A stretch of 38,420 nt of DNA from Mycetocola sp. (GTDB lineage Bacteria > Actinomycetota > Actinomycetes > Actinomycetales > Microbacteriaceae), in the NCBI RefSeq assembly GCF_025464835.1, contig NZ_JAODMP010000069.1, positions 1-38,420 on the forward strand. Direction: 5' to 3'. Below the pieces are notes generated by a model, which did no database searches, was not told where the DNA came from, and saw only the letters and a list, made by a program, of their open reading frames with translations. Within the stretch, counting starts at the first letter, position 1; the number at the start of each line of letters is the position of its first letter. Positions 24,166 through 38,420 of this stretch are shown piece after piece. The position numbers and the translations under genes were made by a program.

Positions 24166-25047
24166 CTAGCGTAGCCCGGCGCGAGGTTTGGCACGCAGCC
24201 CGACCAGACGCGCGACGAGATAGATCAGAAACGAGATCGTCGTGATGTACGGGCTGATCGGCAGCGACCCACCGATAGCCAGCAGGATGCCACCGACTGC
24301 GGAGACGAAGCCGAACACCATCGCGAGCACCGGGACGACAATCGGCGATGCGGACAGTCGCAACGCGGCCGCGGCCGGGGTGACGACGAGGGCGAGCACG
24401 AGAAGTGCACCGATGATCTGCACAGACACGGCGACGATCAGCCCGAGCAGCACCATGAAGGTGAGCGAGACGAACCGGGTAGGGACTCCGCGGGCTGCGG
24501 CGACGTCGGCATCGAGGCTGTCGAAGCTCAACGGGCGCCAGATCAGCAGCAACCCGACGAGCACCGCGAGGCTGATGGCGCTCAGCCAGGTCAACTGGGG
24601 GTCGTCGACCGAGATGATCTGGCCGGTGAGCAACCCGAACTTGTTGGCGCTTCGTCCCGGATACAGGGCGAGGAAGAGGATGCCGAGCCCCAGCCCGAAC
24701 GGCATGAGGACGCCGATGATGGAGTTGCGGTCGCGAGCGCGTGCCCCCAGCAGCCCGATGACGATCGCAGCGATCAGGGCGCCGACGAGGGAACCGGCAA
24801 CGACGTTGACGCCGAACAGCAACGCCGCCGCGGCGCCGGCGAACGAGAGTTCACTGATTCCGTGCACGGCGAAGGCCATGTCGCGTTGCATGACGAAGAC
24901 GCCGATAAGCCCGCCGACGATACCGAGGACGGCTCCCGCGAGGATCGAGTTCTGCACCAGGCCGAGGAGTTCGCCGTAGTTCTCGAAGTTGAACATCCGG
25001 GACCAGAGGTCACCCGCGCCGACGGGGAGCATCACTCCGGCCCTCAT
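24166..25047 (-). CDS. znuB: Zinc ABC transporter permease
   Basis: A 293-residue ABC-3 family permease with about eight transmembrane helices, forming the membrane channel of a zinc importer. It has the family-typical QRDMAFAVHGISELSFAGAA region after the first helices and the coupling segment ARGVPTRFVSLTFMVLLGLI. The ATG overlaps the znuC stop as ATGA. Partners are ZnuC (ATPase) and ZnuA (lipoprotein). Manganese import by the same family cannot be excluded on sequence, but the adjacent zur and Zur-box palindrome make zinc most likely. Confidence 0.92.
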   Translation of the reverse strand: MRAGVMLPVGAGDLWSRMFNFENYGELLGLVQNSILAGAVLGIVGGLIGVFVMQRDMAFAVHGISELSFAGAAAALLFGVNVVAGSLVGALIAAIVIGLLGARARDRNSIIGVLMPFGLGLGILFLALYPGRSANKFGLLTGQIISVDDPQLTWLSAISLAVLVGLLLIWRPLSFDSLDADVAAARGVPTRFVSLTFMVLLGLIVAVSVQIIGALLVLALVVTPAAAALRLSASPIVVPVLAMVFGFVSAVGGILLAIGGSLPISPYITTISFLIYLVARLVGLRAKPRAGLR

Positions 25048-25886
25048 GCCCCGACCTCGGTGTGGCCGTGGTGGTGGGTTTCGCTGTCGGGGATGCCGAC
25101 GACGACGACCCGTCCGCCGGTGCGGAGCACGTCGACAGGGGTGCCGTACAACTCGGTGAGCACATCGCTCGTGAGCACTTCATCCGGTGTTCCCTCACGG
25201 AACTGTCCGCCAGCGAGGTAGAGGATGCGGTCGACCATCCCGAGCACCGGATTGACGTCGTGGGTGACGAAGACGACAGGCGTGCCGTGCTCACGCCGTC
25301 GCCGGTCGATCAGTTCGGAGACGCCGCGCTGGTGCTGCAGGTCCAGGCTGAGCAGGGGCTCGTCGCACAGCAGCATCCGCGGGTCACCGGCGAGCGCCTG
25401 GCCCACTCGCAGCCGCTGTTGCTCGCCTCCGGAGAGGTTGCCGACGGGTTCATCGGCGTAGTGGGAGGCGCCGACCGACGCCAGGAGGGCGTCCACCTGA
25501 CGCTTCTCCGCTCCCCGGCTGACCGGGAGCCCGAACCGGTGCCCGTTCACTCCGAGCGCGACAAGGTCCCGCCCGCGCATCGGCGTGCCTCCCGGGATGA
25601 GCTTCTGCTGGGGGATGTAGCCGATCCGGCGGTCGCCCCGGCGCACCGGGTGCCCGTCGAATCGGATCGTGCCTGCGTCGAGTGGCTGCTGCCCGAGGAT
25701 CGTCTTGAGCAGACTCGTCTTGCCCGATCCGTTCGGCCCGAGGACCGCGAGGAACTCCCCGGCGCAGACGTCGAGGGTGAGGTCGTTCCACAGCACGCGA
25801 TCGCCGAAGCCGAGGGCGGCATCCGTCAGGCTGAGGATCGGGTTGCTCGGGTGGCGGTGACCGGCAGGAGGAACGACGCCGGTCAC
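25044..25886 (-). CDS. znuC: Zinc ABC transporter ATP-binding protein
   Basis: A 280-residue ABC ATPase that powers zinc import. Walker A is GPNGSGKTS (50-58), the Q-loop is YIPQQ, the signature is LSGGEQQRLRVGQAL, and Walker B is MLLCDEPLLSLD, followed by the H-loop VFVTHD. The C-terminus carries a short His-rich tail (ETHHHGHTE), which is common in metal importers. The GTG start overlaps the znuA stop (GTGA) and the stop overlaps znuB (ATGA), so the three subunits are translationally coupled. Confidence 0.93.
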   Translation of the reverse strand: MTGVVPPAGHRHPSNPILSLTDAALGFGDRVLWNDLTLDVCAGEFLAVLGPNGSGKTSLLKTILGQQPLDAGTIRFDGHPVRRGDRRIGYIPQQKLIPGGTPMRGRDLVALGVNGHRFGLPVSRGAEKRQVDALLASVGASHYADEPVGNLSGGEQQRLRVGQALAGDPRMLLCDEPLLSLDLQHQRGVSELIDRRRREHGTPVVFVTHDVNPVLGMVDRILYLAGGQFREGTPDEVLTSDVLTELYGTPVDVLRTGGRVVVVGIPDSETHHHGHTEVGA

Positions 25887-26839
25887 GAGCGGAGCGCGTC
25901 GCTGATAGCGGTCATGTTGTTCGTCATCCAGCTCACATAACTCTCCCCGTCCGGCAGCGTCTCAGCGAAAGACACCACCGGAACGGAATTCTTCTCGGCA
26001 GCGGCGCGGACCCGATCGGTCTCAGGGCCGCTGGTCTGCTCATTGTAGGCGAGCAGTGCGACGTCACCGGTGGCGAGAAGGGCGAGAGCATCCCTGAGGC
26101 TCGCCGGCGAGACATCCGTGCCGTCTTCTATCGCGGCACTGAATTCCGCAGGGGTCACATCGACCAGGCCGGATGCCTCGAGCAGGTACAGCGGCACCGG
26201 CTCGGTGATTGCCACCCCTGCCCCGCCGAACTCCGTCTTGAGCGCCTCGGTCGAGGCGGTGAGCTGAGCGAGTTCTTCCGAGAAGACCGAGTAGTTCTCG
26301 GCGAACTCGGCGGCGTTCTCTTCGTCGAGTTGCGAGAAGACGTGCGCGAGTGTGCTGGCGAGCGAATCCACGGTGGCGAGGTCGTACCAGACGTGTTCGT
26401 TGAGCCCCTCGACGTGCCCGTTCCCGTCCTCCCCACCGTGCTCGTCTGCGCTGTGTCCTTCGACGGGTGCGTGCCCGGACAGGTCGACGACGTTGACCAT
26501 CTCGAGATCGTCCGCGCCGGCGGCATTCACGAGGGTGTCGATGAACGGGTCGTATCCCCCGCCGTTTTCGATCACCAGGTCCGCCTTCGAGATGGCCAGC
26601 TGGTCCTGGGCGCTGGCCTCGTAGCTATGCGGATCCTGCGCCACGGAGTTGATGATGCTCGTCACATCCACGTACTCCCCGCCGATCGCGGAGGCGATGT
26701 CGCCGTACACGTTGGTGGAGGAGACGACGCTGATGCCGGTCGGGTCGTCCACGTTCTCGCTTGCGGGGCTGGAGCATCCGCTGAGCACGAGGGCTGCTGC
26801 GGGCAGGAGCAGAAGGGGAGCGAGGCGGGAGTTGTTCAC
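25883..26839 (-). CDS. znuA: Zinc-binding lipoprotein of the ZnuABC importer
   Basis: A 318-residue cluster A-I metal-binding protein. The signal peptide ends at the lipobox LVLSGC (Cys22), so it is anchored outside the membrane. Metal ligands are expected in QDPHSYE and NEHVWYD. A His/Asp/Glu-rich loop between them (GHSADEHGGEDGNGH region) is the zinc-scavenging loop typical of ZnuA. The GTG at 26839 is chosen: upstream codons are unconserved and cross the Zur-box palindrome, and TACCGT stands 7 nt before it, suggesting a leaderless mRNA. It is first gene of znuACB-zur. Confidence 0.92.
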   Translation of the reverse strand: MNNSRLAPLLLLPAAALVLSGCSSPASENVDDPTGISVVSSTNVYGDIASAIGGEYVDVTSIINSVAQDPHSYEASAQDQLAISKADLVIENGGGYDPFIDTLVNAAGADDLEMVNVVDLSGHAPVEGHSADEHGGEDGNGHVEGLNEHVWYDLATVDSLASTLAHVFSQLDEENAAEFAENYSVFSEELAQLTASTEALKTEFGGAGVAITEPVPLYLLEASGLVDVTPAEFSAAIEDGTDVSPASLRDALALLATGDVALLAYNEQTSGPETDRVRAAAEKNSVPVVSFAETLPDGESYVSWMTNNMTAISDALRS

Positions 26840-26846
26840 TTCGGAT

Positions 26847-26852
26847 ACGGTA
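26847..26852 (-). promoter_or_regulatory. Candidate leaderless -10 element for znuA
   Basis: TACCGT on the minus strand, 7 nt before the GTG at 26839. The Zur-box palindrome begins 7 nt upstream of it, so bound Zur would block the -35/spacer region. Confidence 0.45.
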
Positions 26853-26859
26853 CCCGTAA

Positions 26860-26874
26860 TGATAACGGTTATCA
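26860..26874. promoter_or_regulatory. Zur-box palindrome
   Basis: TGATAACGGTTATCA is a perfect 15-nt palindrome (7-bp arms around one G) in the 69-nt space between divergent znuA and the aminopeptidase gene. Its form, arms with AT-rich ends around a short centre, matches the general type of actinobacterial Zur operators. Placement over the znuA -35 region and next to the expected -35 of the other gene fits repression. Family assignment is by context and motif shape. Confidence 0.8.
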
Positions 26875-26895
26875 ACTTCCGCCGTGTGCACGGAC

Positions 26896-26901
26896 TATGG
26901 T
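26896..26901 (+). promoter_or_regulatory. Candidate leaderless -10 element for the aminopeptidase gene
   Basis: TATGGT followed by seven nucleotides and the ATG at 26909. No Shine-Dalgarno sequence. The matching -35 position falls at the right edge of the Zur-box palindrome. Confidence 0.45.
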
Positions 26902-26908
26902 ATGTCAC

Positions 26909-28246
26909 ATGTCATCCTTACGACTCGTACCGACGATGCACGACGACCCTCACTTGGCGCGTCACGCCCAGGTTTTGGACGCCCTCGATTTCGTACCCGA
27001 CGTCGGCCGTACCGCGGTCGTGGATGACGGAGGCGCGGTACTTCTCGTCGGACTCGGCGAGCGTGGAACCTCGAGCACCGCCTCCACCCGGATCGCGTTC
27101 GCGTTCGCAGCACGGGCGATCGCGGCGGGCGAACTCGTCGTCGAGACCGAAGACCTCGAGGCCGATCTGCTGCAAGCGGCGGCCGAGGGCATCGTCCTCG
27201 GCCGGTACTCCTTCCGTGGCAGCTCCAGGCACTCGGGATGGAAACCCTCGACGCTGTCACCGTCATGGGAAGCAGGGATCGCGATCGGCGAAGCCGTCTG
27301 CCTGGCCCGCGACCTCGTGAATACTCCGCCCAACGTGATGACGCCGGACATACTGGCCGAAAGCTTCCGTGTTCTAGCGATCGACGGCGGTCTCACCGCA
27401 ACCGTTCGGGACGAGCAGTGGCTGCGCGAGGAGGGCTTCGGCGCCGTCCTCGCAATCGGCGGCGGTTCATCCAATCCCCCGCGGCTGGTCGAGCTCGAGT
27501 ACCGCGGTCATGACGGCGGCACGGACGTCTGCCTCGTCGGAAAGGGAGTCACTTTCGACTCCGGCGGGAACTCCTTGAAAGACGCCGACGGGATGATGAC
27601 GATGAAGTCCGACATGGCGGGTGCTGCGGCAGTTGCCGGGGCCATGTCGCTGCTGCGCCGGTTCGCACCACGCATCAACGTCCGGGCCGTGCTGCCCCTC
27701 GTCGAGAACATGCCCGGCTCCACGGCCACCCGCCCCGGCGACGTCGTCACCGCCCGCAACGGCCTCACGATCGAGATCCTGAACACCGATTTCGAGGGCC
27801 GCGTGATCCTTGCGGACGCATTGGGCTACGCGGCAGAGGCGAACCCCGGAGCAATCGTGGACGTCGCGACACTGACATACGCTGCGGCCAACGCCCTCGG
27901 CAACAGGACCGGTGCGGTGCTCGGCGATGACTCGGAGATCGCGCGAATCCGCACTGCGGCCGATCGCTCCGGGGAGCCGTTCTGGCCCTTCCCGATGCCG
28001 TCGCACTTCGCAGCGCAACTGGACTCAGACGTCGCCGATGTGAAGAACTTTCCGGGTGCGCGAGAAGGGCGGGTCATCTCCGCGGCGCACTTCCTGCGTC
28101 GATTCGTACCGGGAACGGTCGACTGGGCGCACCTCGACATAGCCGGTCCGGCCTGGGCTGATGAGACGTACGAGCTCACGACGCGCGGCGGCACCGGCTT
28201 CGGAGTGCGGACGCTGCTCCAGTACCTGCTCGACCGCGCACACTGA
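26909..28246 (+). CDS. pepA: M17 family leucyl aminopeptidase
   Basis: A 445-residue M17 metallo-aminopeptidase that removes N-terminal residues using two divalent metals. The N-terminal macro-like domain (about 1-115) is shorter than usual. The catalytic domain has LVGKGVTFDSGGNSLK (Lys212 and Asp217 as catalytic and metal residues), MMTMKSDMAGAAAV, and LNTDFEGRVILADAL with the metal-binding Asp and Glu and the catalytic Arg. The family consensus at that point reads NTDAEGR, so Phe replaces Ala. The ATG at 26909 is set by TATGGT 7 nt upstream; earlier in-frame starts would read through znuA on the opposite strand. Divergent from znuA across the Zur-box palindrome, it may be zinc-regulated. 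Confidence 0.9.
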   Translation: MSSLRLVPTMHDDPHLARHAQVLDALDFVPDVGRTAVVDDGGAVLLVGLGERGTSSTASTRIAFAFAARAIAAGELVVETEDLEADLLQAAAEGIVLGRYSFRGSSRHSGWKPSTLSPSWEAGIAIGEAVCLARDLVNTPPNVMTPDILAESFRVLAIDGGLTATVRDEQWLREEGFGAVLAIGGGSSNPPRLVELEYRGHDGGTDVCLVGKGVTFDSGGNSLKDADGMMTMKSDMAGAAAVAGAMSLLRRFAPRINVRAVLPLVENMPGSTATRPGDVVTARNGLTIEILNTDFEGRVILADALGYAAEANPGAIVDVATLTYAAANALGNRTGAVLGDDSEIARIRTAADRSGEPFWPFPMPSHFAAQLDSDVADVKNFPGAREGRVISAAHFLRRFVPGTVDWAHLDIAGPAWADETYELTTRGGTGFGVRTLLQYLLDRAH

Positions 28247-28305
28247 AAGCCTGCCCCTGGGATCGGTCGAGGTCCGCTGAGGAGTTACTGGCCCGGTCCC
28301 TAATA

Positions 28306-28339
28306 TTTCCTTGACGGAAATGCGAACGAAACCTAGTGT
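28306..28339 (+). promoter_or_regulatory. Strong candidate promoter of the catabolic operon
   Basis: -35 TTGACG (28311-28316) and -10 TAGTGT (28334-28339) are separated by exactly 17 nt, the best vegetative-type promoter in the window. The -35 lies in the middle of a perfect inverted repeat TTTCC-TTGAC-GGAAA (28306-28320), a likely operator. Transcription would start near 28346. Confidence 0.6.
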
Positions 28340-28363
28340 GTGACATATTACTAGAGCCGGTTT

Positions 28364-28409
28364 TCGTTCCACAAGAACGATTCTGGTTCCTGGGGACGAT
28401 TCGAGTTCC
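28364..28409 (+). repeat. Operator-like repeats in the catabolic operon leader
   Basis: TCGTTC-CACAA-GAACGA (28364-28380) is a perfect inverted repeat. It overlaps a direct repeat ACGATTC-n2-GTTCC at 28377-28390 and again at 28396-28409, 19 nt apart. GTTCC therefore occurs three times, at 28366, 28386 and 28405, close to two helical turns apart. All lie just downstream of the predicted start of transcription, which suggests cooperative repressor binding. Confidence 0.55.
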
Positions 28410-28513
28410 CTAGGCCGAGAGTGCGACGCGACGCGGCGTCCACTCGTCGGCACCTTGCGCATCAGGAGATGTGCCCCGCAGACGATCTCCTCCTTTTCGT
28501 GAAAGGCTCCGTC

Positions 28514-28828
28514 ATGATCCGCACCCTGCTCACGCTTCGCCTGGCGCCCGAGAAGGTTCCGGATGTCCTCGAGCTCTACCGCTCGGACGACATCCTTCAG
28601 TACTCGCTCGACCACTCCGAGGCCCTGACTTCAGAGATCTCGGTCGCGGCCGACGGATCGGGCGAGGTTCTGGTGACCGCCTTATGGCCGGACTCGTCGG
28701 CCTACCAGGGCTGGCTCGACAATCCGTGGCGCGCTGGGTCCAGCGCAAAGCTGAGCGAACTGCTCCGCGATGCCGAGGTAGGCGCCGGCCGCATCTTCGA
28801 AATCGACCACGACGTGCGAAAGCTCTAG
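28514..28828 (+). CDS. Small ABM-like (dimeric alpha/beta barrel) protein
   Basis: A 104-residue protein of ferredoxin-like fold resembling the antibiotic biosynthesis monooxygenase family (MIRTLLTLRLAPEKVPDVLEL at the start, then alternating strands and helices, and WPDSSAYQGWLDNPWR). Such proteins dimerise and act as cofactor-free monooxygenases, isomerases or binding proteins; no catalytic residue can be named here. The ATG at 28514 follows GAAAGG. An in-frame upstream start at 28421 would begin in the operator repeats and is less likely. It is first gene of the transport and ring-opening operon, so it may act on the same substrate. Confidence 0.7.
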   Translation: MIRTLLTLRLAPEKVPDVLELYRSDDILQYSLDHSEALTSEISVAADGSGEVLVTALWPDSSAYQGWLDNPWRAGSSAKLSELLRDAEVGAGRIFEIDHDVRKL

Positions 28829-28926
28829 TCCAGCCCCTTCGCCGTGGCCAGCGGAATCTCTTCCCGCAGTATCCCCTTCCCCAACAATCCACCTGATCAT
28901 CCGCATCCGCATACCTGGAGGTACCC

Positions 28927-29967
28927 GTGCACATCCTCAGCAAGAACGGCCGCCGTGTCGCCGTCGTCGCCATCGCCGCCCTTGGCGTCAGCAGCCTCGC
29001 CGCGTGCAGTTCCCCCTCCGGATCCAATGGATCCGCCGAATCCGACGGCACCTACTCGATCGCCGTACTGCTCGCCTCGAGCCAGAACGGCTACAACCAA
29101 GCCGTCGCCGAGGGGGTCCAGAAAGCAGCCGACTCCCTCGACGGGAAGTTCGACATCACCGTGCTCGACGGAGGCTTCAACGCCGACACCCAGCTCTCGC
29201 AGATGGAGACCGCCGGTGTTGGCGAGAAGTATGACGGCATCGTCGTCGTACCGTTCGACGGACCTGCGCTCGCCGCGGCGTTCCCCCTCGCCAACGGCAT
29301 CCCCGTAACCACGGCGCTGAACCCGATCGGCCCAGACATCGAGGAGATGGAGCCACAGGTCGAAGGAGTCGTCGCCACCGTCGCCGTCCCAGCTGGTGAA
29401 GCCGCGGCGAAGCAGGCAGAGGGCGTCGTCGAGTACTGTGCCGACATCGATCCGTGCAAGGTCGCGCTCCTGGTCGGCCAGCTGAACGCCCCGCTCGACG
29501 TGACGCGAGAGGCCGCCTACCGCAAGGTGCTCGAGCCTGAGGCAAACATCGAGATCGTCGCGACCGTCGAGGGCAACTATGACCCCGACCTCTCCTCGAC
29601 CGCGATCTCGAACGTGCTGCAGGCAAACCCGGACATCAACGTCGTCCTGTCCAACGCCGACCAGCAGACCGAGGGCGCCCAGATCGCGCTCGAGGATGCC
29701 GGGATCGACCCGTCCACCGTCTACCTGACGGGCGGCGGTGGAACATCCAAGTCGATCCAGAACGTCCGCGACGGCGTATGGAAGGCCGATTACATCAACT
29801 TCCCCGTGAGCATGGGCAAGGCAGCGATGGAGCAGCTGTACAACGCTTTGACCGGAGGGGATGTCACCTCGTTCGTGAACGCGGACGAGGTTGGCGAGGT
29901 CGATCCGTACGCCACCAAGGAGACCCTCGACGAGACTCCTGACTACACCGGCGAGTGGGTGGGCTAA
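28927..29967 (+). CDS. ABC transporter substrate-binding lipoprotein, RbsB-like
   Basis: A 346-residue periplasmic-binding-protein-like (type 1) lipoprotein. The signal peptide ends at LAACSS (Cys27). The mature part has two alternating lobes: YSIAVLLASSQNGYNQAVAEG opens the first, GIVVVPFDGPAL lies in the hinge region, and VALLVGQLNAPLDVTREAAY and VYLTGGGGTSKSIQNVRDG lie in the second. This family binds pentoses, autoinducer-2-like and other small polar molecules; the partners downstream suggest a non-sugar ligand. Two cysteines (EYCADIDPCK) could pair. The GTG start follows TGGAGG. It comes before the ATPase and permease genes of the importer. Confidence 0.88.
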   Translation: MHILSKNGRRVAVVAIAALGVSSLAACSSPSGSNGSAESDGTYSIAVLLASSQNGYNQAVAEGVQKAADSLDGKFDITVLDGGFNADTQLSQMETAGVGEKYDGIVVVPFDGPALAAAFPLANGIPVTTALNPIGPDIEEMEPQVEGVVATVAVPAGEAAAKQAEGVVEYCADIDPCKVALLVGQLNAPLDVTREAAYRKVLEPEANIEIVATVEGNYDPDLSSTAISNVLQANPDINVVLSNADQQTEGAQIALEDAGIDPSTVYLTGGGGTSKSIQNVRDGVWKADYINFPVSMGKAAMEQLYNALTGGDVTSFVNADEVGEVDPYATKETLDETPDYTGEWVG

Positions 29968-29995
29968 GGTCGCGGACGGATCGGATCCCACGGAC

Positions 29996-31507
29996 ATGAG
30001 TACAGCCATCGTCGAACTCCTCGGCGCGTCCAAGCGCTTCGGAGGAACCCAGGCCCTCAACGGTGTCGACCTGACGCTTCGCAAGGGAGAGGTGCACGCG
30101 CTCGTCGGCGAGAACGGTGCGGGTAAGTCCACCTTGGGCAAGATTGTGGCCGGGCTCTACGCCCCGGACAGCGGCGAACTTCGGGTTGACGGCGTACCCG
30201 TTTCCCGGTGGGACCCGATCCGTGCTCAACGAGCAGGCATCGTGATGATCGCCCAGGAGCTCTCCCTTGTGTCGCAACTGACCGTTGAGCAGAACGTCTT
30301 CCTCGGGGCTGAAAGTTCGCGGCTCGGTGTACTGAAGCGAGGCACGACAGATCGTTTTCGCGCGCTTCTGGAACTCGCCGAATTCGACCTCGACCCGAAA
30401 GCCCCGGTGGGGACTCTCAGTATCGCCCAGCAGCAGAAGGTGGAGATCATGAGAGCCTTGGCCCGGAAGGCCCGGGTGATCGTGATGGACGAGCCCACCT
30501 CCTCCCTCACCGCACACGAGACCGCACAACTGCACACCCTCATCCGCGGGCTTCGCGAGCAGAACCGCAGCATCGTCTACGTTTCGCACTTTCTCGACGC
30601 CGTCCTCGAGGTGGCCGACACGGTGACGATCATGCGCGACGGCGTCCGCGTCCGTACCGCACCAGCCGCGCAGGAGACGAAGAGCTCGATGGTGGAGGGT
30701 ATGCTCGGGCGCGAACTCTCCGTCACCTTCCCCCCGCGCCGACCATCAGTGAACGAATCGGTGCCGCCGCTGCTGACGCTCGAGGGAGTGACGACGGCGG
30801 CGGCGCACGACATCTCCCTGCAGATCCGGCCGGGCGAGATCGTCGGCCTGCTCGGCCTCGTCGGCTCCGGTCGCAGCGAGATCGCCCGAGCGATCGCCGG
30901 CGCAGACCCGATCACCGGCGGCAGGATGATCTATCGGGGGACAGAGGTGTCCCGATGGAACACCCGCAAGGCCATCGCCTCCGGTGTCGTCATGGTCCCG
31001 GAGGACCGCCACGCGCAGGGCCTCGTCCTGGAGCGCAGCGTGAAAGAGAACATCTCCCTCGCCTTCCTGGACCGGTTTTCCACGCTCGGTGTCATCTCAT
31101 CCCGCCGCGAACGTGCCGGGGCCCAGGAACTCGCCGATGCACTCAGCATGCGTCCGCCGCGCATCGGCCTCGACGTCGGCGGGTTGTCCGGCGGCAACCA
31201 GCAGAAGGCCCTGCTGGGCAAGTGGCTCGTCGGGGAACCGGACGTCGTGATCCTGGACGAGCCGACCCGTGGCGTGGACATCGGCGCCAAAGCGACCATC
31301 TACCGACTCATCGCCGACCTCGCCGAGCGCGGTGTCGGAGTGCTCCTCATCTCCTCCGAGCACGAGGAGGTCCTTGCGCTGAGCACCCGCGCTCACACCG
31401 TCAGTGGCGGAACCATCGTCGGGGAGATCGACCCGGCGACGCTCGGCGTTTCGGACCTGCTCGCTCACCTCTTTTCCGTCGACCTGACCATCGGAGCCAC
31501 CGCATGA
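29996..31507 (+). CDS. ABC transporter ATPase with two nucleotide-binding domains, RbsA-like
   Basis: A 503-residue double ABC ATPase of the ribose/galactose-type importers. Domain 1 has Walker A GENGAGKST, signature LSIAQQQKVEIMRAL and Walker B VIVMDEPTSSL. Domain 2 has the degenerate Walker A GLVGSGRSE, signature LSGGNQQKALLGKWL and Walker B VVILDEPTRGVDIG. The weak second P-loop is normal for RbsA/MglA proteins. The ATG at 29996 is chosen because homology begins at once; an in-frame start 105 nt earlier overlaps the substrate-binding gene. The permease start overlaps the stop as ATGA. Confidence 0.92.
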   Translation: MSTAIVELLGASKRFGGTQALNGVDLTLRKGEVHALVGENGAGKSTLGKIVAGLYAPDSGELRVDGVPVSRWDPIRAQRAGIVMIAQELSLVSQLTVEQNVFLGAESSRLGVLKRGTTDRFRALLELAEFDLDPKAPVGTLSIAQQQKVEIMRALARKARVIVMDEPTSSLTAHETAQLHTLIRGLREQNRSIVYVSHFLDAVLEVADTVTIMRDGVRVRTAPAAQETKSSMVEGMLGRELSVTFPPRRPSVNESVPPLLTLEGVTTAAAHDISLQIRPGEIVGLLGLVGSGRSEIARAIAGADPITGGRMIYRGTEVSRWNTRKAIASGVVMVPEDRHAQGLVLERSVKENISLAFLDRFSTLGVISSRRERAGAQELADALSMRPPRIGLDVGGLSGGNQQKALLGKWLVGEPDVVILDEPTRGVDIGAKATIYRLIADLAERGVGVLLISSEHEEVLALSTRAHTVSGGTIVGEIDPATLGVSDLLAHLFSVDLTIGATA

Positions 31508-32484
31508 CAACCGCAACGGCCACACCCACCCGCATCTCCCGGATCACCCCTGCTTCGGCGCTCCTCTTCCTGCGCGACTACGCCGTGCTCGTCCTGCTGG
31601 GGATCATCCTTCTGGTCCTGGCCATTGCGACGCCGTCCTTCTTCACCTTCGCGAACATCGTCAACATCCTCAATCAAAACGCTCCGCTCGCGATCATTGC
31701 CGTCGCGGGAACCTTCGTGATCATCTCAGGATCGTTCGATCTCTCCACAGCTGCCATCTACGCAGTGTGCAGTGTCGCGGCCGCCTGGGTCGCGGTCGCC
31801 TCGGGCAGCGTGGTCCTCGCCCTTCTGATGCCGCCAGTCATCGGGATGCTGCTCGGCGCTTTCAACGGCTTCAGCGTGACCGTGCTGCGCGTGCACTCAT
31901 TCCTCGCAACGCTCGCGTCCAGCCTGATCTTCAAGGCGATCGCTGTGCTGATCACCGGCGGTGCCCTGATCTCGGTCCCGCTCGACGGGTTCTCCGAACT
32001 CGGCCGCGGCCGCATCGGTGGGGTCTTCTACTCGGTGATCATCCTCTTCATCTTTATCGCGGTGATGTGGTTCGTGCTCAACGGCACCGTCTACGGCCGC
32101 CACGTCTTCGCGGTGGGAGGCAACCAGGACGCCGCACAGCTGTCCGGCGTCTCCGTCGACCGGATCAAGGTCGCTGTCTTCGCCGTCAGCGGACTCGCGG
32201 CGGGGATCGCGGCATCGATCGGTGTGTCACGCATCGCGTCCGGCCAGCCACAGGCCGGCGAGGGCCTCGAGCTGGCCGCGATCGCCGCCATCATCCTCGG
32301 CGGCACCAGCATCAACGGCGGAATGGGAGCCGTCTGGCGCTCAGTCGCCGGCGTCTTCCTCATCGCGCTGATCGGCAACGGGTTCGACATCCTCGGTTTC
32401 AACCCGCAGCTCAAGAACCTCGTCACCGGCGTCATCATCCTCGCCGCCGTCGCGCTTGCCGCCGTCGGTGTCAAGCGCCGCTGA
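31504..32484 (+). CDS. ABC transporter permease, RbsC-like
   Basis: A 326-residue membrane permease of the BPD_transp_2 family with about ten helices. Typical segments are FANIVNILNQNAPLAIIAVA, GSFDLSTAAIYAVCSVAAAW, and the cytoplasmic coupling motif GRHVFAVGGNQDAAQLSGVS, followed by AAIIILGGTSINGG-like sequence (AAIILGGTSINGG). With the preceding ATPase and lipoprotein it forms one importer. The ATG at 31504 overlaps the ATPase stop (ATGA). Confidence 0.92.
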   Translation: MTTATATPTRISRITPASALLFLRDYAVLVLLGIILLVLAIATPSFFTFANIVNILNQNAPLAIIAVAGTFVIISGSFDLSTAAIYAVCSVAAAWVAVASGSVVLALLMPPVIGMLLGAFNGFSVTVLRVHSFLATLASSLIFKAIAVLITGGALISVPLDGFSELGRGRIGGVFYSVIILFIFIAVMWFVLNGTVYGRHVFAVGGNQDAAQLSGVSVDRIKVAVFAVSGLAAGIAASIGVSRIASGQPQAGEGLELAAIAAIILGGTSINGGMGAVWRSVAGVFLIALIGNGFDILGFNPQLKNLVTGVIILAAVALAAVGVKRR

Positions 32485-32539
32485 TCGAGCGCGGCCACAG
32501 CCGCGTCATCCTTTTCCCGTTCCCCAGAAAGGCTCCCTC

Positions 32540-34624
32540 ATGTCCGAAAAAGTTCGCGTCGCCATCGATGTCGGAGGCACGTTCACCGACGTGGTCAAGC
32601 TCACACCCGCGACTGGAGCGATTCGCTTCGAAAAGGTGCCGACCACCCCGAGCGCCCCGACGGAGGGCGTGCTCGCGGGATTCGACAAGGCTGAGGCCGA
32701 CACCGCCGACATCGCGATGTTCAACCACGGCACCACGCTCGGCCTCAACGCCCTGCTCACCCGGACCGGTGCCCGTACGGCCATCGTCTCCACCCGCGGG
32801 TTCCGTGACGTCTACCTGCTCGGTCGCACCGACCGTAAGGAGATGTACGCCATGACCTACCGCAAGCCCGCCGCGCTGGTGGAACGGAGCGACACCTTCG
32901 AGGTCACGGAACGCAGCTACTTCGACGGCACCATCGCCACACCTCTCGACGAAGCGGACGCTCGTGAGGTCGCCGCCCGCATCGCCGCCGGCGGCTACGC
33001 CTCAGTGGCCGTCGCCTTCCTGCATTCGTACGCCAACCCCGCGCACGAAACACGCATGCGGGAAATCCTGCAGGAAGTCGCCCCAGGCGTCCACGTGACC
33101 CTGTCGCACGAGCTCGCCCGTGAGTATCGCGAATACGAACGCACCTCCACCGCCGTGCTTGACGCGTACATCAAGCCCATCGTCCGCGGTTATCTGGAGG
33201 CGCTCGAGGGCAACCTCGAGGGCAGCGGATTCGCCGGTCGCTTCCTGATGTCGCGCTCCGGCGGTGGCGCGATGACCGCTGCTGCCGCAAAGGAGCAGCC
33301 GGTCAACCTCATTCTCTCTGGCCCGGCCGGTGGCGTGATCGGCGCTGCTGCCATCTCCAAACTTTTCGGAACGCCGAACCTGATCACGATCGACATGGGC
33401 GGCACGAGCCTTGACGCGTCACTCGTGCTCGACCACGAACCGTTGCGCTACCAGGGTGCTGAATTCGAGGGTCTCCCGATCACGACGCCGTCGCTCAACA
33501 TCCACACCATCGGAGCTGGTGGGGGCTCCCTCGCCTACCTCGACGACGCCGGCGCTTTGCAGGTGGGCCCGCAGAGCGCGGGCGCGATGCCCGGGCCGGC
33601 CTCATACGGCCGCGGCGGAACCCAGCCCACCTTCACCGACGCCGCCCTCGCAGTCGGGTATCTCGGCTCCGACACCCCGCTGGGTGGATCCCTGGTACTC
33701 GACGAGTCGCTTGCCCTGAAGGCCCTCGAGCCAATCGCCGATCAGCTCGGCATGAGCGCCCGTTCCCTTGCCCGCGGCATGCTGCGCATCTCCTCGACCA
33801 AGATCACCGGCGCCGTCCGCGGCATCACTGTCGAACTCGGCCTTGACCCGAAGGAGTTCGCCCTGCTCAGCTTCGGGGGCGGGGGCGGGCTCGTCGCCGT
33901 GGACGTCGCACGCGAGCTGAGTATCCCCACCGTCATCGTGCCGCCCGGACAGGGCGCGTTCTCAGCGCTCGGCATGCTGATGGCCGATGTCCAGCACGAC
34001 TTCGCGCGCACCTCCGTCACTCCACTGGCAAACCTCGACGCCGGGTCGATCGAAGCTTCGTTCCAGGAGCTCGAGGCAGAGGCGATCACGGCACTCGAGG
34101 CGGAGGGCTTCGGGAAGCCGGAACGCCGCCTCACCCGCACCATCGACGTCCGCTACGCCGGCCAGGAGCATGCCGTGACGGTCGCGTACCCGGAGACGAC
34201 CGGCAACTTCGCAGAGATCGTCGCCGAACGCTTCGCGCAGCTGCACGAGCGCCAGTACGGCCACATCATGAGCGACCCGGTCGAGGTGACGACGCTGCGT
34301 CTGCGGGGCATCGGCATCATCGACAAACCGTCGCTTCCCACCGTTCCCGAGCGCCGGGAGGGCGCGCCCACCCGCTTGGGTTCCCGCGTCGTGCATCTCG
34401 CCGACGGTGTCCAGTCCGTTTACAGCCTGTACTCCCGCGAGCAACTCCTTGCCGGGGACAGCATCCACGGCCCCGCCGTAATCACCGAGCACACCGCCAC
34501 CACGGTGATCCATGAGGGCGACCTGCTCACCGTCGGCAGTTACGGCGAGCTCGTCGTCGCCATCCTGGCCGACTCCCCCGCATCCCCATCCGAATCCACT
34601 CTTCTTGAGGAGGTCGCCCGATGA
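32540..34624 (+). CDS. hyuA: Hydantoinase/oxoprolinase family protein, HyuA-type subunit
   Basis: A 694-residue HyuA-type ATP-dependent amidohydrolase or carboxylase subunit (N-methylhydantoinase A/OXP family). The N-terminal actin-like ATP-binding core begins VAIDVGGTFTDVVKL and continues with FNHGTTLGLNALLTRTGA. Further on are LSGPAGGVIGAA, ITIDMGGTSLDASLV and LLSFGGGGGLVAVDVARELS. Members open cyclic amides (5-oxoproline, hydantoins) or carboxylate ketones. The ATG at 32540 follows AGAAAGG. It is co-transcribed with the HyuB-type partner (ATGA overlap). The substrate is not readable from sequence. Confidence 0.9.
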   Translation: MSEKVRVAIDVGGTFTDVVKLTPATGAIRFEKVPTTPSAPTEGVLAGFDKAEADTADIAMFNHGTTLGLNALLTRTGARTAIVSTRGFRDVYLLGRTDRKEMYAMTYRKPAALVERSDTFEVTERSYFDGTIATPLDEADAREVAARIAAGGYASVAVAFLHSYANPAHETRMREILQEVAPGVHVTLSHELAREYREYERTSTAVLDAYIKPIVRGYLEALEGNLEGSGFAGRFLMSRSGGGAMTAAAAKEQPVNLILSGPAGGVIGAAAISKLFGTPNLITIDMGGTSLDASLVLDHEPLRYQGAEFEGLPITTPSLNIHTIGAGGGSLAYLDDAGALQVGPQSAGAMPGPASYGRGGTQPTFTDAALAVGYLGSDTPLGGSLVLDESLALKALEPIADQLGMSARSLARGMLRISSTKITGAVRGITVELGLDPKEFALLSFGGGGGLVAVDVARELSIPTVIVPPGQGAFSALGMLMADVQHDFARTSVTPLANLDAGSIEASFQELEAEAITALEAEGFGKPERRLTRTIDVRYAGQEHAVTVAYPETTGNFAEIVAERFAQLHERQYGHIMSDPVEVTTLRLRGIGIIDKPSLPTVPERREGAPTRLGSRVVHLADGVQSVYSLYSREQLLAGDSIHGPAVITEHTATTVIHEGDLLTVGSYGELVVAILADSPASPSESTLLEEVAR

Positions 34625-36342
34625 GCGACGCCATCACCACCGAGGTCATCCGCCACGGGCTGCTCGCAGCGGCCTCCGAAATGGCGACGAACCTGTGCCG
34701 CACCGCCTACAACACCGTGGTTTACGAGATCCACGATTACGGCATCGGCATTCACAACGTCAACGGCGACGTGGTCGCGGATGCTCCGGGCATCGCCATC
34801 TTCACCCGGGGCAACGACTACGGCATCAAGAAGGCCGTGGAGTTTCTCGGCGAGGACGCCATGGGCGAGGGGGATGTTTTCCTGCTCAACTACCCGTACT
34901 GGTCGTCGGCTCACGCGCTGGACACGCTCGTTTTCGCCCCGATCCGCTCCAGGCAGGGCCAGTTGATCGGCTACGCGTCCTGCCGGATCCACGTGCTCGA
35001 CCTGATGCAGAAGGACGCCGGCTACGTGCTCGACTCCACCGACATGTACCAGGAGGGCATCTTCTTCCCCGGCACGCGGCTGTACAAGGGCGGTGAATCC
35101 TGCGAGGACACCTTCAACATCATCCGCTTCAACAGCCGGATGCCGAAGCACACCATCGGCGACCTGCAGGCGCAGGTCTCGGCCTGTTACGCAGGCGTGC
35201 AGCGCACGCGAGAACTTGCGGACAAGTATGGCGTCGAGACGCTGACCACGGCGATGGAGACGATCAACGCGCACGGTGAGAAGCTCGCCAGGCTTGCCCT
35301 GGCGAAACTGCCGAAGGGCACCTGGCACGCCACCGATTTCATCGACAGCGACGGCATCGACCGGGACACCCCGGTGAAGATCGATGCCAAGGTCACCATC
35401 ACCGACGACGAGTTCATCGTCGACTGGAGTGAGAGCGCCTACGGCGTGAAGGGGCCGATCAACCTGCCGCCGGGGCAGACCGAAGCGCTGTGTTCGCTGG
35501 TCTTCAAGTCACTCACAACACCGGACTCCCCCGTCGTCGCCGGCAACTTCGCCCCATTGCGGGTGATCACCCGCGAAGGCAGCGTGATGCACGCTGTCCC
35601 GCCCATGCCGACGTTCACGCTGTGGACCGGGCTGCTCGCCGGCGAGGTGGTCTACAAGGCGCTGGCTCAGGGCATGCCGGAGCTGATCCCTGCCTCCTCC
35701 GGCGGAGACGTCAGCTCGATGATGGGCCTCGGTGTGAACCCGCGCACCGGAGAAGCCTGGCTCGAGGCCACCAACGAGGCCGTCGGGTTCGGCGGCCACT
35801 CGGGAGGCGACGGCGAGGACGGCATCATGCACTTCAGCGAGCCGGGTTGCCGCAACAACCCGGTCGAAGTGCTTGAGACCAAATCCCCGATGATCATCGA
35901 CTCCTACGGCTACCGCCCCGACTCTGCCGGGGCCGGTAAGCACCGCGGCGGTGTTGGCGTGAGCCGCGTCTACCGTTTCACCGCCGACTCGGTCGGCATC
36001 GGGCTGGTCTACAAGACCACGTCGCCGCCGTGGGCTGTCGGCGGGGGCCGGGAGGCCCTGCCGAACGGCATGACCATCAACCGCGGCACGTCGGCGGAGC
36101 GCTCCGGTTCCGGCAATTACAACAAGCTCGCCGCTGGCGAGACGCTGGACAACAGCACAGGGGGTGGCGGCGGATGGGGCAACCCGTTCGAGCGCGACCC
36201 GAATGCCGTAGCGAAGGATGTGCGCAACGGTTTCGTAAGCGCGGGGGCTGCCGCTGAGCAATACGGTGTCGTCGTGGATCCGGTCACCTTCGCGGTCGAT
36301 GAGGAAGCCACGTCCGGCCTGCGCTCCGGAGCGAGAGCGTGA
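34621..36342 (+). CDS. hyuB: Hydantoinase/oxoprolinase family protein, HyuB-type subunit
   Basis: A 573-residue HyuB-type subunit, working as a complex with HyuA. Family features are ITTEVIRHGLLAAASEMATN at the start, FTRGNDYGIKKAV, GDVFLLNYPYWSSAHALDT, IGDLQAQVSACYAG and the C-terminal GGVGVSRVYRF and TGGGGGWGNPFERDP. In 5-oxoprolinase, HyuA- and HyuB-like parts are fused in one chain of about 1,280 residues; here they are separate, as in N-methylhydantoinases and acetophenone or acetone carboxylase relatives. The start overlaps hyuA (ATGA) and the stop overlaps the amidohydrolase gene (GTGA). Confidence 0.9.
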   Translation: MSDAITTEVIRHGLLAAASEMATNLCRTAYNTVVYEIHDYGIGIHNVNGDVVADAPGIAIFTRGNDYGIKKAVEFLGEDAMGEGDVFLLNYPYWSSAHALDTLVFAPIRSRQGQLIGYASCRIHVLDLMQKDAGYVLDSTDMYQEGIFFPGTRLYKGGESCEDTFNIIRFNSRMPKHTIGDLQAQVSACYAGVQRTRELADKYGVETLTTAMETINAHGEKLARLALAKLPKGTWHATDFIDSDGIDRDTPVKIDAKVTITDDEFIVDWSESAYGVKGPINLPPGQTEALCSLVFKSLTTPDSPVVAGNFAPLRVITREGSVMHAVPPMPTFTLWTGLLAGEVVYKALAQGMPELIPASSGGDVSSMMGLGVNPRTGEAWLEATNEAVGFGGHSGGDGEDGIMHFSEPGCRNNPVEVLETKSPMIIDSYGYRPDSAGAGKHRGGVGVSRVYRFTADSVGIGLVYKTTSPPWAVGGGREALPNGMTINRGTSAERSGSGNYNKLAAGETLDNSTGGGGGWGNPFERDPNAVAKDVRNGFVSAGAAAEQYGVVVDPVTFAVDEEATSGLRSGARA

Positions 36343-37544
36343 CGGAAACGCTGGTTGTCCGCAACGCGCTCGTCTTCGACGGCGAGTCGGCCGAGGTCTC
36401 CGAGGCGTCCATCCGAATCGCCGACGGGCGCATCGTGGAACTGGGCAACGTCACCGGCGGGGCCGATCGTGTGATCGAGGCAGAAGGGCGGGTCGTCACA
36501 CCTGGGCTCCTCGACGCGCACTTCCACGCGTACGCGATCGCCCTGGACTCGGAGCCGATCGAGCAAGCCTTGCTCAGTTACGTCGCACTCGTCGGCCAGC
36601 ACCGACTGACCGATGCTCTGCGCCGGGGGTTCACGACGGTGCGTGACCCGGCCGGTGGAGACGCGGGACTGGCACGCGCGATCGACGAGGGCCATGTCCT
36701 GGCTCCGAGGTATCTTTTCATGGGATCGGCGCTCAGCCAGACCGGCGGCCACGGCGACTATCGGCATGCTGACAGCGACGTCTGCTTCCACGGCGGGCAC
36801 ACCGTCGATGTCGTCGACGGTCCGGATGCGTTGCGGGTCGCGGCGCGCGAGCGGTTGCGCAGCGGCGCCCACGCCATCAAAATCTTCACTTCGGGCGGGG
36901 TCGTCTCACCGACGGACCCGATCCGGAGGCCCCAGTACTCGGCGGAGGAGATTCGTGCCGTCGTCGACGAGGCACGTCGACGAGGCAGCTACGTCGCCGC
37001 TCACGCCTATTCGCCCGAGGCGATCGAGCATTCAGTGGTTAACGGGGTGCGCTCGATCGAGCATGGCAACCTGCTCGACGCGGTGACCGCACGGTTGATG
37101 GCCGAGCACGGCGCCATCCTGGTGCCGACGCTTGGCGCATATGACGCTATGGAGCGTCTCGGCGACGAGCTGGGGCTCTCGACGGTCGCCAAGTCGAAGA
37201 ACCGGGAGGTTCTGGCCGCCGGTCGTGACGCGGTGCGGCACGCCCACGAGGCGGGCGTGGTCGTCGGTTTCGGCTCGGACAACATGGGCGCGCTTGTTTC
37301 GGAGCAGCTCGTCGGTGTGCGACTGCTTGCTGAGGCATCCTCCAATCTCGAGGCGCTGCGCTCCCTGACCAGCCGCAACGCCCTTCTGATGCAGCGCGAC
37401 GACCTCGGTCGCATCGCTGTGGGAGCAGCCGGCGACCTCGTTCTGTGGTCGGGTAACCCACTCGAGGACATCGATGTGATCGCTGACCGGAACCGTGAGC
37501 GGACGGTCATCCTCGCCGGGGCTGTGGTGGGAGAAACTGCGTGA
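36339..37544 (+). CDS. Amidohydrolase, imidazolonepropionase/prolidase-like (cog1228)
   Basis: A 401-residue metal-dependent amidohydrolase. The HxH pair is DAHFHAY (about 61-63), the bridging Lys lies in AIKIFTSGGVV, and further His ligands lie in AAHAYSPEA and SIEHGN, with the catalytic Asp in GFGSDNMG. The SQTGGHGDYR segment resembles cog1228 members reported to cleave Xaa-Pro or related dipeptides, but imidazolone- and other ring-opening enzymes share the fold. No signal peptide, so cytoplasmic. The GTG start overlaps hyuB (GTGA) and the stop overlaps the ProC-like gene (GTGA). It probably acts after, or alongside, HyuAB on the imported compound. Confidence 0.88.
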   Translation: MTETLVVRNALVFDGESAEVSEASIRIADGRIVELGNVTGGADRVIEAEGRVVTPGLLDAHFHAYAIALDSEPIEQALLSYVALVGQHRLTDALRRGFTTVRDPAGGDAGLARAIDEGHVLAPRYLFMGSALSQTGGHGDYRHADSDVCFHGGHTVDVVDGPDALRVAARERLRSGAHAIKIFTSGGVVSPTDPIRRPQYSAEEIRAVVDEARRRGSYVAAHAYSPEAIEHSVVNGVRSIEHGNLLDAVTARLMAEHGAILVPTLGAYDAMERLGDELGLSTVAKSKNREVLAAGRDAVRHAHEAGVVVGFGSDNMGALVSEQLVGVRLLAEASSNLEALRSLTSRNALLMQRDDLGRIAVGAAGDLVLWSGNPLEDIDVIADRNRERTVILAGAVVGETA

Positions 37545-38362
37545 CCGCACCCCGTGTCGCCGTCCTTGGTGCTGGCTCCCTCGCCGGCGCCATGCTCTCC
37601 GGCTGGGAGCGAGCGGGAGTGGTGTTCGACTCGCTCGTCACCGTGAACCGCACGGCTGCGGGCGCTGCAGCCCTCGCCGGCAGGGGGACGGCGCTGTCCC
37701 TCGAATCGAATCCGGACGCCAACCGGGTGGCGGTTCGCGGCGCAGACATCGTGGTGATTGCGGTCAAGCCGTACATGATCGATGACCTGCTGCCGACGAT
37801 CGCGACTGCGCTGGCGCCAGGAGCAGTGGTGATTACCGTAGCTGCCGGCATCCGGAGCGAGCGCTTCCGCCCCGCACTGCCCCGATCGGTAGCGGTGATT
37901 CGCGCGATGCCCAACACTCCGTCTGCGGTCGGTCGCGGCGTCATCGGACTCGTCGCGGATCCCGCGGTGCCTGCCGAGGCGATGTTCGCGGCGCGTGCCC
38001 TGCTCGAGCCGCTCGGGGAGGTCGTCGAGGTGCCGGCCGATCAGCTCGACGGCATCGTGGCGATCTCGGGGTCTGGTCCTGCTTACGTCTTCCTGATGAT
38101 CGAGAAACTCGCATCAGCGGCGATCGCCCAGGGATTCGAACCGGGAACGGCGGCCTTGCTCGCCCGCCAGGTGTTCCTGGGTGCCGCCGAGCTGTTGGTT
38201 GCGTCGGGTGAGGACCCCGCTGAGTTGCGCCGACGGGTGACCAGCCCGAACGGAACGACGGAACGGGCGATCGCGGTCTTCCAGGCCGGGGGCCTTGACG
38301 ACCTGTTCGTGGCGGCGACGCAGGCCTGTCGGCAGCGGGCGCAAGAACTCGGTCGCGGCTAG
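37541..38362 (+). CDS. proC: Pyrroline-5-carboxylate reductase family protein
   Basis: A 273-residue ProC-family NAD(P)H-dependent imine reductase. The Rossmann motif is VAVLGAGSLAGAML (7-20, with Leu-Ala where GxGxMG has Met-Gly). Further are VVIAVKP, AMPNTPSAVGRG, ISGSGPAYVFLMIE (helices forming the imine/proline site) and the signature RRRVTSPNGTTERAI. The canonical enzyme makes proline from 1-pyrroline-5-carboxylate. Placement as last gene of a catabolic operon, rather than with proBA, suggests a second copy working on an imine derived from the imported compound. A hairpin follows. Confidence 0.88.
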   Translation: MTAPRVAVLGAGSLAGAMLSGWERAGVVFDSLVTVNRTAAGAAALAGRGTALSLESNPDANRVAVRGADIVVIAVKPYMIDDLLPTIATALAPGAVVITVAAGIRSERFRPALPRSVAVIRAMPNTPSAVGRGVIGLVADPAVPAEAMFAARALLEPLGEVVEVPADQLDGIVAISGSGPAYVFLMIEKLASAAIAQGFEPGTAALLARQVFLGAAELLVASGEDPAELRRRVTSPNGTTERAIAVFQAGGLDDLFVAATQACRQRAQELGRG

Positions 38363-38364
38363 CC

Positions 38365-38405
38365 CGGTGGTCGGGGTGCGCATAAGGCGACACCCCGCCG
38401 ACCGG
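38365..38405 (+). terminator. Candidate terminator of the catabolic operon
   Basis: GGTCGGGGTG (38369-38378) can pair with CACCCC (38391-38396) and GACC (38400-38403), giving a stem of ten pairs with a 3-nt bulge, directly after the proC-like stop. No T-tract is visible before the window ends. Confidence 0.35.
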
Positions 38406-38420
38406 ACACGAGCAGAACGG

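Follow-up and report, generated by a model that had tools for sequence, protein, structure and literature searches.

The window analysed here is a 38,420-nucleotide stretch of DNA that makes up one whole contig (C72) of the 106-contig, 2.66 Mb genome of an actinobacterium, Mycetocola sp., of Microbacteriaceae, the family in which relatives of the genome were searched. At its end lies an operon of eight genes that encode an RbsABC-type importer, the two subunits of a hydantoinase-type enzyme (HyuA and HyuB, together HyuAB), a cog1228 amidohydrolase (Amh), a ProC reductase and a small ABM-fold protein. We propose, with a probability of roughly one half, that this operon serves to take up and degrade a ring compound from which hydroxyproline (Hyp) is released, most probably a cyclic dipeptide. 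A tie between the operon and Hyp metabolism is in itself highly probable, while the chances that the substrate is a cyclic dipeptide are about even. The proposal is built on gene order, protein families, active-site residues, conservation and the link to Hyp genes, all read from the sequences.

A conserved operon with so precise a route would assign genes to a known orphan activity, the degradation of diketopiperazines, would give a functional name to a clade of actinobacterial "hydantoinase/oxoprolinase" proteins, and would help in finding soil organisms that consume hydroxyproline from collagen or plants. Diketopiperazines occur commonly as natural products and also arise from proteins by heating or digestion.

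Gene content of the operon

The features are as follows (coordinates in the window, strand, description, basis).

28514-28828, + strand: ABM-fold (dimeric ferredoxin-like) protein of 104 amino acids (fold model, conserved cluster)
28927-29967, + strand: substrate-binding lipoprotein (SBP), Peripla_BP_4, ribose-binding-protein fold, predicted non-sugar pocket (Pfam, model, alignment)
29996-31507, + strand: RbsA-type ABC ATPase, ABC_tran twice, i.e. two ABC domains (family match)
31504-32484, + strand: RbsC-type permease, BPD_transp_2 (family match)
32540-34624, + strand: HyuA, ATP-dependent activating subunit, Hydant_A_N, Hydantoinase_A and Hydant_A_C (family match, CapA alignment)
34621-36342, + strand: HyuB, metal-dependent hydrolysing subunit, Hydantoinase_B (family match, CapB alignment)
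36339-37544, + strand: Amh, cog1228 amidohydrolase, prolidase-like, Amidohydro_1 (family match, 3feq/3n2c alignment)
37541-38362, + strand: ProC, pyrroline-5-carboxylate reductase family, P5CR_dimer (passes TIGR00112)
38364-38378 and 38391-38405, + strand: inverted repeat 3' of ProC, possible terminator (arms 87% complementary)
26936-28246, + strand: M17 aminopeptidase just upstream of the operon, possible associated dipeptidase (family match)

The eight co-directional genes described in the initial annotation, which was made from the letters of the window, are borne out (28514-38362), and so are their families, except that the ABM-fold protein matches no family. The translational coupling described there is also present, as four 4-base overlaps that read ATGA, ATGA, GTGA and GTGA. 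A gene caller based on codon usage recovers the same eight frames, with starts for the ABM and ProC genes that differ from those adopted here.

Proposed catabolic route

The substrate would be a neutral ring, most likely a 2,5-diketopiperazine, cyclo(Xaa-Hyp) or cyclo(Xaa-Pro), which the RbsABC-type importer would bring into the cell in uncharged form. With ATP, HyuA would then phosphorylate the secondary amide in its lactim form, and the metal site of HyuB would carry out the hydrolysis. Because only an N-H amide can form a lactim, the ring would open at the Hyp-CO/NH-Xaa bond and yield linear Xaa-Hyp. This direction of opening, which we infer, makes the product of HyuAB exactly the substrate of a prolidase; it joins the two enzymes and is the sharpest prediction of the proposal. 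The cog1228 prolidase would next cut the imidodipeptide Xaa-Hyp into Xaa and Hyp, and Hyp would finally be converted by an epimerase, a D-Hyp dehydrogenase, a DapA-like deaminase and a semialdehyde dehydrogenase to 2-oxoglutarate. Genes for this last stage adjoin the operon in several relatives, and in this genome they are found on two other contigs, C47 and C18.

Two readings had been offered in the initial annotation. The better of them is a proline-containing cyclic dipeptide that is opened by HyuAB and then cut by the prolidase-like enzyme, but the partner pathway is Hyp degradation, which was not named there. The other, a lactam, hydantoin or 5-oxoproline-type compound, is weakened since it leaves both the Hyp genes and the prolidase unexplained.

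The ring-opening enzyme and the amidohydrolase

The three domains of HyuA score 291, 170 and 54 bits against Pfam and that of HyuB scores 478 bits, each of which exceeds its curated cut-off. HyuA D10 and D285 align with Asp11 and Asp295 of CapA, the Asp pair of the ATP site, and HyuB D39, H98, D101 and H124 align with Asp41, His99, Asp102 and His124 of CapB, which form the Asp-His-Asp-His metal site. These CapA and CapB residues were mutation targets in a study of caprolactamase (PMC8453981, excerpts). The excerpts also give, for CapAB and 5-oxoprolinase, a proposed mechanism in which an N-H amide is activated as its lactim, with carboxyphosphate as an alternative. The best sequence match in the PDB is the N-methylhydantoinase 7hk5 (HyuA 422 bits, HyuB 248 bits). 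Neither of two named enzymes fits: the scores for caprolactamase (484.4 and 226.8 bits) lie far under the NCBIfam equivalog cut-off of 1000, and those for acetophenone carboxylase are likewise far too low for the curated thresholds.

Amh is 45% identical (171 of 380 aligned positions, 281 bits) to the prolidase 3feq/3n2c, followed by 3mkv as the next best match, and its metal-ligand positions (HxH, K181, H222, H242 and D314) match those of 3feq/3n2c. At E 0.001, no other copy turns up in this genome. The position of the M17 gene near the operon is suggestive; it is one of two such genes in the genome, 43% identical to the other copy. M17 genes are found near 6 of 80 loci of relatives and, at 35% identity, near none of 20 control loci (see below), numbers too small to test. 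An M19 peptidase gene stands beside one further locus, L015.

Conservation in relatives

A HyuB scan of 84,980 species genomes yielded 122 relatives; the 80 best were retained, each with at most 10 kb of flanking sequence per side (loci are numbered with the prefix L). Counts for long loci refer to the 54 of at least 20 kb; the other 26 have shorter flanks and are excluded from them. Neighbouring genes were called by codon usage; in GC-rich DNA the longest open reading frames are no reliable guide to genes.

The operon is real and conserved in actinobacteria. HyuAB and Amh are its fixed core, the importer and the ABM-fold protein are usual partners, and ProC is an occasional extra: HyuA is present in 79 of the 80 loci, Amh in 65, RbsC in 59, SBP in 58, ABM in 35 and ProC in 4, and the corresponding numbers for the 54 long loci are 54, 48, 47, 47, 27 and 4. 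Amh lies immediately 3' of HyuB in 53 of the 80. Co-conservation of importer and enzyme genes, to which the initial annotation attached its reading, comes out in its favour. SBP and RbsC both occur in 47 of the 54 long loci. RbsC is on the same strand as HyuA in 22, either directly upstream (15) or with at least one gene between (7), but it is divergent in 23, so that importer and enzymes often belong to separate transcripts elsewhere; in the remaining long loci it is placed elsewhere (2) or absent (7). Two kinds of importer exist among the relatives, with SBPs that are either 48-77% or 27-34% identical to that of the window.

Some loci have a different gene order or additional genes. Amh lies upstream of HyuA-HyuB in L042, L046, L047, L050 and L053 (Acidimicrobiia and other bins), and also in L056, where an ABM-like gene is found between them; RbsC was not found in the long loci of this type, L042, L053 and L056. 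At 36 of the 80 loci (e.g. L016:486-4260 and L029:1-3731) there is a trio that consists of a PucR regulator, an S-methyl-thiohydantoin-desulfurase-like protein (S-Me-THD, DUF917-type) and a short HyuA-like protein, perhaps a second ring-opening enzyme.

Within the family, a HyuB orthologue (at least 72% identity) is present in 11 of 249 Microbacteriaceae genomes, the next best match being 34% identical, and a HyuB homologue (E 1e-20) is absent from all five other sampled genomes of the genus. A scan of plasmid records at E 1e-80 gave eight matches, whose identity is 46% at most; the annotation of the best one, from a haloarchaeon, contains no prolidase-like or Hyp gene.

Linkage to hydroxyproline genes

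In bacteria, trans-4-hydroxyproline is degraded by an epimerase, a D-Hyp dehydrogenase, a Pyr4H2C deaminase and a 2-oxoglutarate semialdehyde dehydrogenase. A set of genes that look like this route recurs beside the operon. It comprises a proline-racemase-family protein nearest to 4-hydroxyproline epimerase, a DapA-family protein, DadA/ThiO-like and SoxA-like oxidoreductases, a small protein that matches no family (a presumed 2Fe-2S protein), an aldehyde dehydrogenase (ALDH), a GntR/FCD regulator and sometimes an OCD/mu-crystallin protein. Two neighbouring clusters, also without a family match, are presumably of the Dpp type, a label given by eye. Both catalytic cysteine motifs are present in the homologue of Hyp epimerase.

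The most complete arrangement is that of L113 (Labedella group), where one strand carries, in order, GntR, DadA, the small protein, SoxA, DapA, Hyp epimerase, ALDH, ABM, SBP, RbsA, RbsC, HyuA, HyuB, Amh and ProC. Gaps between neighbours do not exceed 45 bases within the stretches DadA-ABM and SBP-ProC, and about 255 bases separate the two stretches. Similarly, Streptomyces L088 has SoxA, DapA, epimerase, ALDH, SBP, RbsA, RbsC, HyuA, HyuB, Amh and LLM on one strand, with no ABM gene. In L114, which apparently lies on the same contig as L059, the strand of the importer carries DadA, the small protein, SoxA, DapA and epimerase downstream of it, and HyuAB-Amh are divergent; in Phytoactinopolyspora and Subtercola, too, the importer and Hyp genes share one strand and HyuAB-Amh are divergent. 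The Hyp genes are downstream in Aeromicrobium and Paractinoplanes atraurantiacus, and in the Streptosporangiaceae loci L018, L041 and L066, DapA-like, GntR and LLM genes lie between RbsC and HyuA. Overall, at least two of six Hyp families occur within the fetched flanks of 13 of the 54 long loci, and on a quick HyuB tree (78 rows, 55 of them scored) the Hyp-neighbour label requires eight changes.

In this genome the Hyp families (epimerase, dehydrogenase, DapA-like deaminase and ALDH) are found on C47 (L109) and C18 (L110), split by contig ends, and the epimerase homologue here has both cysteine motifs. These contigs also carry AcnX, of the cis-3-hydroxyproline dehydratase family, a branched-chain-amino-acid-type importer, a relative of pyrroline-2-carboxylate reductase, a D-amino-acid dehydrogenase-like gene and another protein of the racemase family, whose nearest kin is trans-3-hydroxyproline dehydratase.

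As controls, we used places of HyuB paralogues in Microbacteriaceae, of which there are 41; the 20 best-scoring were fetched (one of 15.5 kb, the rest of 19.9 kb). No Hyp family at 35% identity or more is found in any of these 20. In the same test on the eight orthologue stretches of the family (L112-L119), at least two Hyp families are found in L113 and L114 only, and L112 has the ALDH alone. At the level of whole genomes, Pro_racemase, the homologue of proline racemase and Hyp epimerase, is present in 11 of 11 operon-bearing genomes versus 47 of 238 others (hypergeometric p 5e-8), in 8 of 8 operon-bearing genera versus 31 of 85 genera overall (p 1.6e-4), and in only 4 of the 30 genomes that have HyuB paralogues alone (p 4e-7 versus operon genomes); these tests treat related genomes as independent.

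Importer, ABM-fold protein and ProC

In its predicted structure (mean pLDDT 88), the SBP resembles ribose-binding proteins (2ioy, TM 0.71/0.89). In a profile alignment to 2ioy, the positions of Asp89, Arg90, Asn190 and Asp215, the ribose contacts in the numbering of ribose-binding protein, are occupied by Leu131, Asn132, Ala244 and Gly271; the ribose-site Arg (R194) and an aromatic residue (Y218) are kept. The predicted pocket suits an uncharged, less polar ring. Thus, the sugar-type importer of the initial annotation stands as to its parts, an SBP with the ribose-binding fold, a two-domain RbsA and an RbsC, but a sugar as its ligand is weakened by the replacement of four polar contacts, and sugar uptake was rejected as the principal explanation.

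The ABM-fold protein has no Pfam or NCBIfam match at E 0.001. Its model (mean pLDDT 93) is closest in the PDB to 3e8o (TM 0.80), and W58, Y64, W67, P71 and R73 are invariant in 30 aligned relatives. It is a fair guess from the model that the protein is an isomerase, for instance a ring epimerase, because LsrG (3qmq), the partner of another Rbs-type importer, is among the fold matches. ProC passes the cut-off for pyrroline-5-carboxylate reductase (TIGR00112, 222 versus 196.75 bits); it is the second copy in the genome, the other being on C26, and may recycle a pyrroline. In Labedella phragmitis, a gene for an HpcH/HpaI aldolase (L014:13772-14512) overlaps the end of ProC.

Alternative explanations

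Several results weigh against a cyclic dipeptide that releases Hyp. The HyuAB clade of the window has no characterised member, and the S-methyl-thiohydantoin-desulfurase-like cluster at 36 of the 80 loci points as much to hydantoin-type rings. In 41 of the 54 long loci, the window included, the fetched flanks do not contain two Hyp families. None of the Hyp genes that were run reaches its NCBIfam equivalog cut-off: the epimerases score 350 (L077) and 335 (this genome) against 376, the DapA-like proteins 124 and 151 against 206, and the ALDH falls far below its own. Because of this, the Hyp assignment rests on family, gene set and the cysteine motifs of the epimerase. Amh scores 218.7 against a cut-off of 500 for NCBIfam Xaa-Pro dipeptidase (NF051886), and ProC, which makes proline, has no assigned place in the proposed route. 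Among the controls, the paralogue L122 (G003 C2), whose HyuAB differs from that of the window (HyuB about 34% identical), adjoins a similar importer (SBP 58% and RbsC 62% identical to those of relatives of this importer) and an S-Me-THD gene, and L124 carries a relative of Amh (37%).

Some of these points favour a lactam or cyclic imide without a Hyp part, beside which Hyp genes would stand since both routes serve collagen- or plant-derived nitrogen. The scarcity of Hyp families near most long loci would be expected, and a related enzyme, CapAB, opens caprolactam (PMC6061476 and PMC8453981, excerpts). However, Pro_racemase is found in all 11 operon-bearing genomes, L113 and L088 have fused same-strand arrays, the caprolactamase cut-offs are far off (484 and 227 versus 1000), and the prolidase-like enzyme would be left without a role, so that we consider this explanation unlikely. 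Slightly less likely is a hydantoin-type ring, perhaps a bicyclic hydantoin of Hyp or Pro, from which HyuAB and then Amh, stripping an N-carbamoyl or other N-acyl group, would yield Hyp or Pro. The scores of HyuAB against N-methylhydantoinase and the S-Me-THD-like genes agree with such a ring, and release of Hyp would still account for the Hyp genes, but no HyuC-type carbamoylase is recognised in the window, the nearest PDB relatives of Amh are prolidases, and dipeptides are suggested by the M17 and M19 peptidase genes close to some loci.

The remaining two explanations start from the importer. It may bring in Hyp or Hyp peptides, with HyuAB and Amh clearing a side product of Hyp intermediates (for example an imino acid that has been cyclised or N-acylated) and ProC clearing reactive pyrrolines. 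A repair role would suit ABM and ProC, and no transporter other than this importer was recognised among the Hyp genes in the stretches fetched for L113 and L088. We nevertheless regard it as improbable: in this genome the Hyp genes on C18 have the branched-chain-amino-acid-type importer as a neighbour, and Pro_racemase occurs without the operon in 43 of the 208 genomes that lack a HyuB homologue at E 1e-20. By far the least credible is uptake of glycosylated Hyp from plant cell walls (Hyp-arabinosides), which would combine the sugar-type importer fold with the Hyp genes; no glycosidase is present among the operon genes or the identified neighbour clusters (not every neighbour gene was scanned), HyuAB would have no role, and the SBP pocket lacks the polar residues of the sugar type.

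Relation to known systems

A close parallel is CapAB, the caprolactamase of Pseudomonas jessenii, likewise a two-subunit ATP-dependent lactam hydrolase, whose ATP-site Asp residues and metal site align with those of HyuAB. The operon differs from it in scores far below the cut-offs and in gene company, which is an importer, a prolidase and Hyp catabolism, with no aminotransferase or adipate-type genes recognised here. HyuAB hydantoinases, represented by 7hk5, are the top PDB sequence match of both subunits, but 7hk5 is one fused chain, and in the window the prolidase-like amidohydrolase follows in place of a recognised carbamoylase. With the cog1228 prolidases 3feq/3n2c and 3mkv, Amh shares 45% identity over 380 positions (3feq/3n2c) and the metal-ligand positions; these are known as stand-alone enzymes, whereas Amh is coupled to HyuAB. 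The bacterial trans-4-hydroxyproline pathway is matched in gene families that adjoin the operon in relatives and lie on C47 and C18 here. The Lsr operon also combines an Rbs-type importer with an ABM-fold protein, LsrG; the operon of the window, in contrast, has no kinase or sugar-like ligand, and its enzymes are amide hydrolases.

A study of proline racemase neighbourhoods (PMC4113996) names peptidases and ABC systems as neighbours of the family, and its main text does not contain the words "hydantoin", "oxoprolin" or "cyclic". According to excerpts of PMC3852281, the one paper found that is devoted to the subject, Leifsonia sp. K3 and Microbacterium sp. 40A, which belong to Microbacteriaceae as does the window, degrade diketopiperazines by enzymes not identified there, and ordinary peptidases failed on these compounds; we count the activity of these two strains in favour of the proposal. 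The same excerpts report that no tested strain degraded cyclo(Pro-Tyr), the proline diketopiperazine named, a further point against our proposal. The initial annotation knew of no described pathway with this set of genes, which agrees with the open-licence literature (subscription papers being outside the scope): no paper in the library searched joins hydantoinase-type genes with Hyp catabolism, the one match being a review on amino acid production, though one sentence in the excerpts of PMC6061476 suggests some HyuAB-type genes as possible cyclic dipeptide hydrolases. It is possible, if somewhat short of an even chance, that the operon represents the first catabolic system for cyclic dipeptides of Hyp or Pro to be defined at the genetic level, with a dedicated importer, an ATP-dependent diketopiperazine hydrolase and a prolidase, and that it is widespread in actinobacteria.

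Boundaries and surroundings of the operon

The strong promoter placed before the operon by the initial annotation was not recovered: a sigma-70 scan of 28200-38420 gave no site (mean of 0.7 in shuffled sequences), and the candidate seen by eye near 28310-28338, TTGACG-17-TAGTGT, matches only 8 of 12 consensus bases. The hairpin described at the other end exists as an inverted repeat (38364-38405) but has no T-run and is not listed by a terminator scan; the contig stops just past it, at 38420. By composition there is no signal of recent foreign DNA, the GC content being 66.5% in the operon and 65.7% in the first 28 kb. The stretch 28301-28414, upstream of the ABM gene, holds a 19-base direct repeat (ACGATTC..GTTCC) as well as inverted repeats, which are possible regulator sites. 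Farther upstream, at 24166-26908 on the - strand, genes for a metal-type ABC importer (SBP, ATPase and permease; named by eye) are divergent from the M17 gene.

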